Shown piece by piece: positions 12,276 to 46,176 of a stretch of DNA of 60,056 bases. Under the pieces are notes generated by a model. That model ran no database searches, was not told where the DNA came from, and was given only the letters and a program-made list of their open reading frames with translations. Numbering within the stretch: position 1 is the first letter of the stretch; each line of letters opens with the position of its first letter. The stretch comes from Clostridia bacterium. Lineage in GTDB: Bacteria; Bacillota; Clostridia; UBA1212; UBA1255. The stretch covers positions 1 through 60,056 of the forward strand of contig JAFZSK010000098.1 of NCBI GenBank assembly GCA_017620915.1, written 5' to 3'. The translations under genes were made by a program, and so were the position numbers.

Positions 12276-13724
12276 ATGGAATTCAACTTCCCGAACGCCG
12301 CCGCATCGGACCGCCCGATGGAACCGCAGACACTGTGCGGCTGGTTTGACGACCCCAACAGGTTTAACGGCTTCGTTGACCTCCGCCCGTTCGCGGACGA
12401 CAAGACCGTGCTCCGCAACCCGCATAAAGGCTGGTTCTGGCATTTTATTGACAACGGCCTGCGCGGCCCCCTCTACCGCGAGCCCCGCGACCCGAACGAC
12501 CACCTGGAAGACTTCCCCGGCCTCAACCACCTGTATTTGCGCTTTGACTGGTCCGACGTGGAAAAGGCCGAAGGCGTGTACGATTTCGGCTTTCTGGATG
12601 AGATCATGGATGAATGGGCGCCGTACGGATACGCGTTTTCGCTGCGCGTGTGCTGCTTTGAAACCAGCTACGGTGCGGAACCCGCCACACCGCGGTATGT
12701 GTTCGAAAAAGGCGCCAGGTGCTACGATCTGAAGAACGGCACGTTCTACCAGCCGGATTACGGCGACCCGTATTTTCTGGAGCGGCTCGAGGCGTTCATG
12801 GAAGTGTTCGGGCGCAAGTATAATAACGATCCGCGGGTGGATATCGTTGACATCGGCACGTACGGCACCTGGGGCGAAGGCCACACGGTGGAAGGCGACG
12901 GCGTGATCTATCCGGTGGAAACGGTGAAGAAACATATCGATCTCCACCTGAAATACTTCCCGGATAAATACCTGCTGCTGAACGACGACCACATTGTCGG
13001 GCGCATCGTGCACGGCCCGGCGGAGTGCCAGGAAATGCTGGATTACGCGTACGAGCGCGGGCTGGGGCTGCAGGACGACTCGATCTGCTGCGACTACTAT
13101 TCCGTGGTCAACGGCTACGACACCATGCGCGCCACCTTCGCTTTTCAGAAGCTGGCGGACAACGCCCCCTCCTGCATCGAATTCGCCCACTACGGCTATA
13201 TCCACCCCACTTTTGACGATTATTACCGCAATGGTCTGACCATCGTGGAGTGCCTGAAAAACTCCCGTGCCACGTTCGCGGGCTTCCACGGCTACCCGCG
13301 GCTGTTCCTGAAGTCGGACAAGTGGCTGGCGGAATACTGCGCGAACCGGCTGGGGTACTGGTATTTCGTTGACAACGCGCTGATCCCGGAACTCACCGCC
13401 TCCGCCCACAACCACATCAAGGTCAATCTCACCAACAAAGGCTGGTCGAAAGCATACTACCGTCACAATATCCGCGTCCAGTTACTGGGCGACAAAGGCA
13501 TCGCCCGCGTCATTGACACCGATGCCCGCGTGGACGGCCTTCAGTACGAGGAGCAGCGCGCGTTTGACCTTAACCTGGATCTGCGCGGCCTGCCCGAAGG
13601 CGAATACAAAGTGCTGCTCGGCGTGTTCGAAGGCAACCGCCCTATCAAACTGGCGCTGAAAGCGGAGCTTGAGTCAGAAGACGGATTTTACTGTATTGCA
13701 AACCGCTTTGTAAAAGGACTTTGA
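12276..13724 (+). CDS. DUF4832-type (beta/alpha)-barrel glycoside hydrolase-like protein
   Basis: Cytosolic protein of 482 residues. It opens with the NPHKGW signature seen in DUF4832/beta-galactosidase-like proteins, continues with LYLRFDWSDVEKAEGVYDF (the W-x-x-(I/V)E-P...Y-x-(F/W) pattern of retaining GH-A barrels), and has DIVDIGTYGTWGEGH, where the Glu of WGE is a likely catalytic acid/base. The last about 110 residues (INLTNKGW...GEYKVLLGVFEGNRPIKLALK region) look like the C-terminal immunoglobulin-like DUF4832 domain. AAGGAG lies 10 nt before the ATG. With the preceding helical-barrel protein it may degrade one imported oligosaccharide; the sugar is unknown. Confidence 0.6.
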   Translation: MEFNFPNAAASDRPMEPQTLCGWFDDPNRFNGFVDLRPFADDKTVLRNPHKGWFWHFIDNGLRGPLYREPRDPNDHLEDFPGLNHLYLRFDWSDVEKAEGVYDFGFLDEIMDEWAPYGYAFSLRVCCFETSYGAEPATPRYVFEKGARCYDLKNGTFYQPDYGDPYFLERLEAFMEVFGRKYNNDPRVDIVDIGTYGTWGEGHTVEGDGVIYPVETVKKHIDLHLKYFPDKYLLLNDDHIVGRIVHGPAECQEMLDYAYERGLGLQDDSICCDYYSVVNGYDTMRATFAFQKLADNAPSCIEFAHYGYIHPTFDDYYRNGLTIVECLKNSRATFAGFHGYPRLFLKSDKWLAEYCANRLGYWYFVDNALIPELTASAHNHIKVNLTNKGWSKAYYRHNIRVQLLGDKGIARVIDTDARVDGLQYEEQRAFDLNLDLRGLPEGEYKVLLGVFEGNRPIKLALKAELESEDGFYCIANRFVKGL

Positions 13725-13738
13725 GCAAGGGGCTATAT

Positions 13739-13787
13739 GCAAAGGGCAAATGGCAAATGACAAGGGGCAAAGGGCAAGGGGCAAAAG
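13739..13787 (+). repeat. Heptanucleotide tandem array, GCAAATG family, 7 units
   Basis: Seven consecutive 7-bp units: GCAAAGG, GCAAATG, GCAAATG, ACAAGGG, GCAAAGG, GCAAGGG, GCAAAAG. It begins 14 bp after the stop codon of the preceding gene. The same family appears inverted at 14378-14440 and again at 21664-21705. Confidence 0.9.
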
Positions 13788-13911
13788 TCGCATAGAAATG
13801 CTATTTTTCCGATTTCGTATAAATCCTTAGTTGCAAGATATATGGCGCTCGTTCATTTTCAGGTCACGGGCGCCTTCCCTGTTTAAAGGAGCGGGGCGTG
13901 TTGATACCCGC

Positions 13912-14032
13912 GTCTAGCAAAACCTCCATTTTCAGGCGATTTGCTAGACAAGGGCTCCTTCTCTTTGCAGCCAGAAGATCGGCTGATTTGTATATTTCTT
14001 AAAAATAGCGCAAAACGGCTGATTTTTAAGAA
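13912..14032. repeat. Twin-hairpin unit, copy A
   Basis: First hairpin: arms GTCTAGCAAA (13912-13921) and TTTGCTAGAC (13940-13949), a perfect 10-bp match with an 18-nt loop. After a 46-nt spacer comes a second hairpin with arms TTCTTAAAAAT (13996-14006) and ATTTTTAAGAA (14022-14032), a perfect 11-bp match with a 15-nt loop. The same architecture recurs 262 bp downstream. Confidence 0.8.
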
Positions 14033-14173
14033 CCGGGCGACATCTCAAACTGCAGACAAGGTATGATTTGCTCATTATGACCGGGAAATTAGGCAATTCG
14101 GGATAATCACGGGAGAGTTTATGGAAAACAGATGCCGCCTCGGAGCAGAAAACGAGCAAGAATGATTCGGTTC

Positions 14174-14296
14174 GTCTAGCTAAATTCCATAAAAAAGCAT
14201 TTTGCTAGACAATCTCCAGCTACTGAGGCTGAAAATGAGCAAGAGCAGATGGAAAGTTCTTAAAAAGTCTTTAAAACAGCCATTTTTTAAGAACTT
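14174..14296. repeat. Twin-hairpin unit, copy B
   Basis: First hairpin: arms GTCTAGC (14174-14180) and GCTAGAC (14204-14210). The spacer to the TTCTTAAAAA arm at 14257 is again 46 nt. Second hairpin: AAGTTCTTAAAAA (14254-14266) against TTTTTTAAGAACTT (14283-14296). Arms are conserved relative to copy A while loops and spacer have diverged, as expected if structure is what is kept. Confidence 0.8.
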
Positions 14297-14377
14297 GAAG
14301 CAACCGACGGCTAAAAAAGCACAAGAAGGCTGGCTTGGTTTCAAACACAAAGTTACTGCGGAATTGCAAGTCGAACA

Positions 14378-14440
14378 CTTGCCATCTGCCTCTTGCCCTT
14401 TGCCCCTTGCCGTTTGCCCTTTTCCCCTTGCCATTTGTCC
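14378..14440 (-). repeat. Heptanucleotide tandem array, GCAAATG family, inverted, 9 units
   Basis: Nine 7-bp units read on the plus strand as CTTGCCA, TCTGCCT, CTTGCCC, TTTGCCC, CTTGCCG, TTTGCCC, TTTTCCC, CTTGCCA, TTTGTCC, the reverse complement of the array at 13739-13787. The eighth unit supplies the -35 box of the next promoter. Confidence 0.9.
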
Positions 14441-14456
14441 CCCGCGGGTTTATAAT
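14428..14456 (+). promoter_or_regulatory. Promoter with -35 box inside the heptamer array
   Basis: TTGCCA (14428-14433), a 17-bp spacer and a perfect TATAAT (14451-14456). The start point would be near 14463, about 24 nt before the ATG of the phosphoribosyltransferase gene. Confidence 0.7.
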
Positions 14457-14486
14457 GAGATTGCAATCTTATCTGGAGATGATAAC

Positions 14487-17599: not shown

Positions 17600-17612
17600 G
17601 CACAAAAAGTTA

Positions 17613-17684
17613 TAAGTTTTAAGTTATAAGTTTTAAGTTATAAGTTTTAAGTTGAGGAAGTTTTAAGTTGTAAGTTTTAAGTTA
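17613..17684 (+). repeat. Heptanucleotide tandem array, TAAGTTW family, about 10 units
   Basis: Six units (TAAGTTT, TAAGTTA, TAAGTTT, TAAGTTA, TAAGTTT, TAAGTTG) run from 17613 to 17654. After a 9-bp interruption three more (TAAGTTG, TAAGTTT, TAAGTTA) follow at 17664-17684. The alternation gives a 14-bp higher-order period. It fills the gap between two divergent promoters. The inverse of the family is at 46130-46176. Confidence 0.9.
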
Positions 17685-17693
17685 TGGAGCGAT

Positions 17694-21638: not shown

Positions 21639-21667
21639 ATTGTAGCACAAGACGGAACACAATGCAA
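21639..21667 (-). promoter_or_regulatory. Promoter of the signal peptidase gene, -35 touching the repeat array
   Basis: On the minus strand TTGCAT (21667-21662), 17-bp spacer, TACAAT (21644-21639). The -35 hexamer overlaps the first unit of the heptamer array at 21664. Confidence 0.5.
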
Positions 21668-21705
21668 ATGGCAAATGGCAAATGGCAAGGGGCAAATGGC
21701 AAATA
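21664..21705 (+). repeat. Heptanucleotide tandem array, GCAAATG family, 6 units
   Basis: Units GCAAATG x3, GCAAGGG, GCAAATG, GCAAATA, followed by a decayed GGAAAAC. It sits between divergent promoters for the signal peptidase and the NAGPA-domain gene. Confidence 0.9.
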
Positions 21706-21726
21706 GGAAAACGGGCAATTGAAATA

Positions 21727-26295: not shown

Positions 26296-26556
26296 CGTAA
26301 AGGCGTTGAAGGAGAAAGTAGCCTTTGTTGTCCACGTACAGAGAGGAAGCGGCCGGTGCGAGCTTCCGGGACACATTGACGAAGACCGCTCCGGAGCCGC
26401 GGCGCAGAAATGACCGCTCGAAAAGGCGGCAGAGTAAGCGCCGACGCTTTCCTGCGTGAGTGGAGCGACTGATCGAGTTAAAGTTCAAGGTGGAACCGTG
26501 TGAGATATCGCACCCTTGACGGCATGGACAACAGTCCGCCCGTCCGGGGTGTTTTT
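26296..26556 (+). promoter_or_regulatory. T-box riboswitch controlling thrS
   Basis: A leader of about 260 nt between the thrS promoter and gene. Stem I shows the AGAGAGG element (26339-26346) and GGTGCGAGC distal segment. A candidate threonine specifier ACC lies at 26385-26387, before CTCCGGAG. The T-box sequence AAGGTGGAACCGTG is at 26487-26500. A terminator with stem GACGG..GGAC / GTCC..CCGTC and T-run occupies 26518-26556. Uncharged tRNA-Thr would favour the antiterminator. The specifier assignment is by position and by the gene downstream. Confidence 0.9.
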
Positions 26557-32199: not shown

Positions 32200-32759
32200 C
32201 GAATTGAATGGCTCTGATCATGATTTCGCAGAAATTCTGGCCGCGCGGCCGACAGCGCTCGCCCTGCTTTACCTGGCCGCTCGTTTTTTCGTTGTGACCA
32301 CCTCATTTTCATTTTTTTGGCCATATTTGGTATAAACAGACTTAACTCGCGTAGTTTAATACCAGTTTTCCCTTGCTCTCGCTCATTTTTAAAAACGCGA
32401 ATTTCAAAAAATGGTATAAAAAATATTGACTTAGATAAAATCAATCCTATCTTTCGGAACGCTCGTGGTATATAAAAATGAATCTAAACCCATTTAATAC
32501 TAATCGCTCAGGATTCGATAGAGCCGGCAATCGCGAGAAGGCGCCCAATCTGGTATAAAATGATTATAAAAATATAGTTTTATCCGAAGGAGCAATAAAA
32601 CAAGGTATGCAAATTGTCCGCGAAGGCGCCCGGCAAGGTATAAAAGAACAAGAAACGAAGATTTTTGTCCTAACCCGCCTGTTAAACGACCGGGCACCGT
32701 CGGTCGCGCGGCTTGACTAGACCACGAAATCGGGAGCAGAGCCCAGAAAAGATATAATC
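32200..32759. other. Gene-free AT-rich spacer with GGTATAAAA repeats
   Basis: No convincing gene. GGTATAAA recurs at about 32328, 32412, 32551 and 32637, with partial copies (GGTATATAAAA near 32467, GGTATGCAAA near 32604) and one inverse (TTTAATACC near 32356). An extended unit, CGCGA(GA)AGGCGCCC then a CAA-containing gap then GGTATAAAA, occurs twice (about 32532-32560 and 32619-32645). Purpose unknown. Confidence 0.5.
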
Positions 32760-46111: not shown

Positions 46112-46129
46112 TTTGCATTTGCCTCCGAA

Positions 46130-46176
46130 ACTTCTAACTTAAAACTTATAACTTATAACTTATAACTTGTAACTTC
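46130..46176 (-). repeat. Heptanucleotide tandem array, TAAGTTW family, inverted, 7 units
   Basis: Plus-strand units ACTTCTA, ACTTAAA, ACTTATA x3, ACTTGTA, ACTTCTC. This is the reverse complement of the family at 17613-17684. It abuts the addB stop codon and precedes the hutP promoter. Confidence 0.9.

Follow-up and report, generated by a model that had tools for sequence, protein, structure and literature searches.

Hairpin arrays in the body of a probable decayed ISL3-type MITE from a Clostridia bacterium

ISL3 insertion sequences typically have GGCTCT-type ends, often starting with GGCTCTT, and generate 8-bp target duplications. Relatives of the intergenic block described here share the 8-bp duplications and GGCTCT-type ends with these insertion sequences and their MITEs. 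Moreover, a DDE_Tnp_ISL3 transposase gene lies beside the MITE repeat in one genome (G001), and a repeat agreeing at 20 of 24 positions is present in another (G233). In contrast to ISL3 insertion sequences, the hairpin MITEs carry no coding gene, and their body consists of hairpin arrays with family-specific arms that the autonomous G233 element lacks.

Other described repeats resemble the block relatives in part. BrickBuilt of Porphyromonas gingivalis, also an intergenic MITE with many copies in one host group, demonstrates that a MITE can hold an internal tandem repeat array; however, its repeats are 23 nt long without spacers, and its abstract reports no family of differing palindromic arms (PMC4596501). 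REP, BIME, and REPIN repeats, as outlined in the portions of the sources cited, are likewise mosaic intergenic palindrome arrays of high copy number, whereas the block relatives have long loops, DDE-type ends, target duplications, and no linked RAYT (PMC2817692, PMC3116915). Hairpin and double-hairpin elements of mitochondria have conserved stems, variable loops, tandem double hairpins, and stem types that differ by complementary substitutions; however, they reside in organelle genomes, and the passages cited describe neither terminal repeats nor target duplications (PMC2800124). The words 'ISL3' and 'hairpin' are absent from the cited part of a review of prokaryotic MITEs (PMC10969869), and no ISL3 MITE bearing arrays of hairpins whose arms are specific to a family appears in the literature searched (titles and beginnings of abstracts, mostly outside subscription journals). 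The author of an earlier note on this DNA knew of no described element with such a plan. Within that literature the statement stands for the hairpin-array cargo, but not for the chassis, which appears to be that of an ordinary ISL3-type MITE. Even as plain MITE cargo, the hairpins would represent a large and apparently undescribed intergenic repeat class in a gut-bacterial genus.

The block, its hairpins and its flanking heptamer arrays

The window, which is the whole stretch of 60,056 nucleotides that we analysed, contains a block located between a gene for a DUF4832 protein (ending at 13724) and a phosphoribosyltransferase gene. The block was correctly described as gene-free, as this copy holds only mechanical ORFs and no transposase gene. 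On the forward strand, a left subterminal motif, GCTCGTTCATTTTCAG (13847–13862), which recurs in other copies, and the scaffold motif CGGGCGCCTTC (13867–13877) precede hairpin 1 (13912–13949; 38 nt; arms GTCTAGCAAA/TTTGCTAGAC). A motif search places a further scaffold motif, GGGCTCCTTCTCT, 3' of this hairpin (13952–13964, forward strand). Hairpin 2 (13996–14032, forward strand; 37 nt) has arms TTCTTAAAAAT/ATTTTTAAGAA and is followed by CCGGGCGACATCTC. Hairpin 3 (14174–14210), on the same strand, pairs GTCTAGC with GCTAGAC with one stem mismatch, and the right subterminal motif CTGAAAATGAGCAAGAGC (14229–14246, forward strand) is the inverse of the left one. The core of hairpin 4, with TTCTTAAAAA arms, spans 14257–14293, and its extended arms (AAG)TTCTTAAAAA/TTTTTAAGAA(CTT) reach 14254–14296 on the forward strand. 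All four hairpins are evident in the sequence and in folds, and hairpins 1, 2 and 4 also in an inverted-repeat search.

Two regularities reported earlier hold on the sequence: the spacers are exactly 46 nt in both pairs (13950–13995 and 14211–14256), and the two twin-hairpin units are offset by 262 bp. Folded as single-strand DNA, the hairpins have z-scores of -3.0 to -4.6. The 60-kb window contains six inverted repeats of hairpin size (arm of 9 or more, 30–46 nt), three of them inside the block. No Rfam family matches the block hairpins at E<=1, and none of the plasmid and phage records match the block, so a plasmid or phage origin was rejected.

A GCAAAKG-type heptamer array lies to the left of the block (13739–13787; 13739–13785 in TRF) and another to the right (14378–14442, as in TRF). 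The arrays reported earlier thus exist, with imperfect repeats, but they are not long inverted ends of the block. A search of the same genome with 13700–14480 returned 65 matches, of which 12 touch the core and 53 are heptamer arrays alone (several of these count on both strands, and four lie in the window); the core alone as query also returned 12, equal to its share of the longer search. Because the arrays are spread throughout the genome, we rejected them as ends of the element. The left array is a dispersed repeat independent of the element, and the right array is found without it in a related genome (G003). The terminal repeats of the element itself lie inside the arrays, at 13799 and ~14377. 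It is extremely unlikely that the block is a large palindrome bounded by the two arrays. They do lie ~12 bp to the left and 1 bp to the right of the element, and arrays are situated at or near one MITE end in some other copies (L233, L008); however, 53 of the 65 genome matches are arrays alone, in G003 a single array stands without an element, and across most loci arrays occur apart from elements and elements apart from arrays.

Further imperfect heptamer arrays are present in the window at 21664–21718, 17607–17685 and 46129–46175. Two types, GCAAAKG and AAGTTAT/AACTTAT, occur in the window, and copies of the GCAAAKG type are scattered across the genome, much as STRR repeats are in cyanobacteria.

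Empty site, genomic relatives and terminal repeats

In G003, window positions 13741–14394 are absent from the same gene junction. The alignment ends at 13740 and restarts at 14395 with one heptamer array at the junction, and the two flanking genes share 85.6% and 94.6% DNA identity with those of the window. G001 and G005 also keep the gene neighbours and lack the block. Because the junction is without the block in all three genomes, the block and its left array were either gained in their own lineage or lost in the others, a gain being simpler.

Core relatives are present on seven contigs of G000, the window's own genome (C116, C91, C98, C34, C85, C37 and C86), and C37 and C31 carry tandem units spaced by 83–84 bp. 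A covariance model built from 19 units matches all seven genomes of the genus at E<=1 (133, 131, 51, 36, 24, 9 and 7 matches, with palindromes counting on both strands), and hairpin-unit relatives occupy many intergenic spacers across the genus. At E<=1e-4 the model matches 6 of the 31 genomes from the order, namely five from the genus and G024 from another family, whose single match is a TTTCTTGCAAA array on the common CTCGCTCATTTT scaffold. The exact motif GGGCKCCTTCTCT has 29 sites in G000, 27 in G003 and none in the five other genus genomes. Of these 56 sites, the 30 with loci were examined; about half of them have no strong adjoining hairpin, and we attribute most such sites to further MITE families whose arms have decayed. 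Since several copies lie at contig ends, MAG assemblies may break there. None of the outcomes that the earlier note had named as speaking against its reading (no second copy, no covariation in the arms, the same spacer in all relatives) was found in full, and both copies and an empty site were.

By-eye comparison of copies yielded the outward end ACGAAATYGGGANNAGAGCC. A pattern search allowing up to 3 mismatches found 34 sites in G000, 58 in G004, 32 in G006, 19 in G003, 13 in G001, 7 in G005 and 1 in G002, against 2, 4, 3, 1, 5, 3 and 3, respectively, for the reversed control; the counts in G001, G005 and G002 are therefore weak or at background. Paired ends bound elements 129–699 bp long, and complete relatives have GGCTCT..TCCCGATTTCGT terminal inverted repeats and 8-bp target duplications. 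The flanking 8-mers of 19 distinct end pairs have a mean identity of 0.53, compared with 0.16–0.38 at lengths 3–7 and 9–12. Duplications that agree in at least 6 of their 8 positions flank 7 of the 19 bounded elements (46 of 3192, or 1.4%, in a shifted-register control), and a clear duplication is absent from the other 12. Perfect or near-perfect examples are CAAGCAGG/CAAGCAGG around a GTCATAGC hairpin (L241) and ACGGCTGA/GCGGCTGA around four (L050); a looser rule adds ATATGATC/ATATAATC around a TTCTTAA hairpin (L006). A set of 25 bounded elements contains 31 hairpins, one of which is an N run, compared with a shuffled mean of 4.2. None of the pattern-search matches supplies a terminal repeat for the arrays on C37 and C31 (39.1 kb).

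In the window copy, the left terminal inverted repeat (13799–13818, forward strand) is decayed, with 3 mismatches to the pattern. The right one (14358–14377, forward strand), located by pattern search and by-eye comparison, is strongly decayed, with about 5–6 mismatches; a homologous copy (L002) has GCGGAATTGGGAGTAGTGCC at this position. No target duplication is recognisable at the window copy, which spans about 13799–14377 with decayed ends. The many copies, the empty site, and the terminal repeats and target duplications of relatives bear out the earlier suggestion of a non-autonomous mobile element. We conclude with good confidence that the block is an ISL3-type MITE with a hairpin-array body, preserved in decayed form, whose ancestors would have been moved in trans.

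A second MITE of the same superfamily is located in the window at 32210–32743, with terminal repeats carrying 3 and 0 mismatches. It is intergenic, better preserved than the block, and has at least five other copies of its 534–536-bp family in G000. The arms of this family are decayed, and it adds almost no hairpins to the bounded-element count.

Dispersal of the hairpins by a RAYT (Y1 transposase), as for REP or BIME palindromes, is highly unlikely. The mosaic palindrome arrays do resemble BIMEs, and G000 has one Y1_Tnp gene. However, the 3-kb locus around that gene contains no such hairpin (one locus, L141), and the elements carry DDE-type ends and 8-bp target duplications. The single RAYT-like Y1 transposase gene (L141; G000:C76:13234–13563) is without flanking hairpins. 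Another repeat in these genomes consists of GGGGWCAGACCCC palindromes (L006, L059, L101), which we presume to be likelier RAYT partners than the block hairpins and which may pair with the L141 gene.

Arm families on a common scaffold

The cargo consists of 37–41-nt hairpins, one per tandem unit of roughly 84 bp. At least 10 arm sequences share a common scaffold, including GTCTAGC, TTCTTAA, ATAAAC, GTGGGAC, GTCATAGC and AGACATACC; the arm sequences observed include GTCTAGCAAA, GTCTAACAAAA, GTCTAAAAAA, GTCTATAGAAA, GTCATAGCAAA and ATAAACAAAAA, together with GTGGGACAAAA, TTCTTAAAAA, TTTCTTGCAAA, AGACATACCAAA, TGGCACACAAA and GTTAAGTAAAAT. The scaffold around the arms is often GGGCKCCKTCTC ... CTGAAAATGAGCGAG.

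Within families, arm identity is 0.90–0.97 and loop identity 0.33–0.54 (170 distinct hairpins in ten families, taken in the largest loop-length class of each; TCTATAG has too few for a measure), the arm values being inflated by a search rule that tolerated no more than 3 mismatches. The last hairpin of eight aligned ATAAAC copies, which was not used in retrieval, makes a fairer test: its arms have an identity of 1.00, its loop 0.38, and its flanks 0.59 and 0.66. The observation that arms are conserved while loops diverge is therefore sound within families, where the arms hardly change. Between families the arms differ completely, with changes on both sides. Double arm changes number 14 against 7.3 expected, with pairing restored in 7 of the 14. 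G.U pairs account for 20 of 97 one-sided arm changes, no excess and near the estimated level for mutation alone. No clear mark of RNA wobble is thus apparent, and within families the arms rarely change.

The suggestion that the block might be a structured RNA finds no favour in these data. Conserved stems could in principle be the RNA stems of a family of tandem riboregulators, and 96.8% of cells have paired arms, changes fall on both sides in 8 of 10 pairs, and the loops vary freely. However, the hairpins in the pairing count were selected for complementarity, the sets having been partly retrieved in this way; there is no excess of G.U and no Rfam match; and the stems are A/T-rich, in hairpins of 37–41 nt with loops of 15–18 nt. 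Moreover, of 25 sites, 9 lie in codirectional spacers, convergent and divergent spacers hold 4 each, and 8 are unresolved. We consider an RNA family very unlikely. Because G.U changes are not in excess, a putative DNA-level role of the hairpins fits better than an RNA role.

An array in G003 repeats a unit with left arm GTCTAAA and right arm GTTAGAC, an intermediate that joins two arm types through a change on one side only. At one orthologous spacer, both G000 (L019) and G003 (L114+L118) have hairpin arrays with flanks matching on both sides. The arms differ, being TCTATAG/GTCTAAA in the former and GTCTAAC/ATAAAC in the latter, and the arrays have no unit-by-unit alignment. Arm turnover at an orthologous site was rejected for L109/L127, where orthology is limited to the right flank, so the insertions may be independent.

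Integron attC sites have the core consensus RYYYAAC/GTTRRRY throughout. By eye, only the GTCTAAC family fits this consensus and the other families fail. Of five viral scans by arm pattern, three gave 0 matches, one gave a single match apparently in a coding stretch, and one gave 22 matches without scaffold context, many like ordinary terminators. The GTCTARC pattern occurs in 18 stretches of named genomes. Eight of these are in RUG12823, and the other 10, mostly single hairpins from unrelated taxa, are about the number estimated for chance.

The ISL3 transposase and possible roles of the hairpins

Among the seven genus genomes, PF01610 has one match above its cut-off, in G001. This ISL3 transposase gene is truncated by the contig end and has the MITE terminal repeat, as GGCTCTACTCCCATTTTCGT, directly past its stop codon, at one end only. 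The PF01610 match in G004 is a Transposase_mut protein under the ISL3 cut-off. G000 and G003 yielded no ISL3 gene, perhaps through loss of multi-copy elements in MAG assemblies, and no ISL3 protein was found in viral contigs. At E<=1e-20, 8 of 391 genomes of the class have an ISL3 match. One of them, G233 from another family, encodes a full-length relative (45% identical) inside a 1335-bp element flanked on both sides by TAACCTTA, a perfect 8-bp duplication. Its repeat GGTTCTTTACTTCTTTCCGTGAAA and the MITE end GGCTCTTTTCCTGTTTCCGTGAAA agree at 20 of 24 positions, counted by eye at both ends. This element contains no hairpins; therefore, the hairpins are probably not needed by the ISL3 transposase itself. 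What would remain is recognition by a factor of the host or an accessory one, an effect of cruciforms, or a selfish unit nested in the MITE.

The ancestors of the window copy would have been cut and pasted, by their ends, through an ISL3 transposase provided in trans. Their body units of ~84 bp would each combine a 37–41-nt hairpin with a GGGCKCCTTCTC / AAAATGAGCGAG scaffold and would multiply by tandem duplication. It is unlikely that the hairpin unit is itself mobile or self-copying and nested in MITEs, like the double-hairpin elements of mitochondria. The same units do make up arrays for which no terminal repeats were detected (C37, C31), arrays grow by 83–85-bp steps, and the autonomous G233 element is free of hairpins. 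However, the scaffold motifs are common to bounded MITEs, and no insertion of a lone unit flanked by a duplication of its own came to light.

With the hairpins taken as cargo of an ISL3-type MITE, the palindromes may act at the level of DNA, as half-site pairs for a dimeric protein or, with similar caution, as cruciforms. Each MITE lineage would retain an arm sequence of its own; the pairs of arms may shift stepwise via one-sided intermediates. That the arms are DNA-binding sites is a tentative proposal, to which we give somewhat less than even weight. If they are recognised, the families would be dozens of natural replicates in which the binding site varied on a constant geometry and scaffold, making co-evolution of repeat DNA and reader directly testable. 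More speculatively, and with considerable doubt, the arms could be a diversifying key, of which each MITE lineage would broadcast several palindrome copies per insertion. The key would comprise two half-sites of 10–12 bp separated by about 16 bp, within units of ~8 helical turns, and would be read by fast-diverging DNA-binding proteins of host or element. If so, arm diversity on one scaffold would record an arms race over recognition, for which transposon-directed DNA-binding repressors offer a parallel outside bacteria; alternatively, the readers would be co-evolving accessory transposition factors.

We also observed ends of Transposase_mut (IS256-like) insertion sequences inside or beside hairpin elements at seven loci (L003, L004, L005, L017, L095, L100 and L297), six of which were selected for hairpins. 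Among 40 unselected contig starts, the sole IS end (C35, L297) falls within the loop of an ATAAAC hairpin. A preference of this IS for hairpin elements is suggestive only. IS1272, of a different IS family, is a known case of palindromes as targets. It replaces inverted-repeat targets, according to the part of the source cited (PMC5678879), and the Transposase_mut IS may also target palindromes. Elsewhere in the window, a T-box leader (Rfam RF00230) is located at 26297–26520, directly before a gene.
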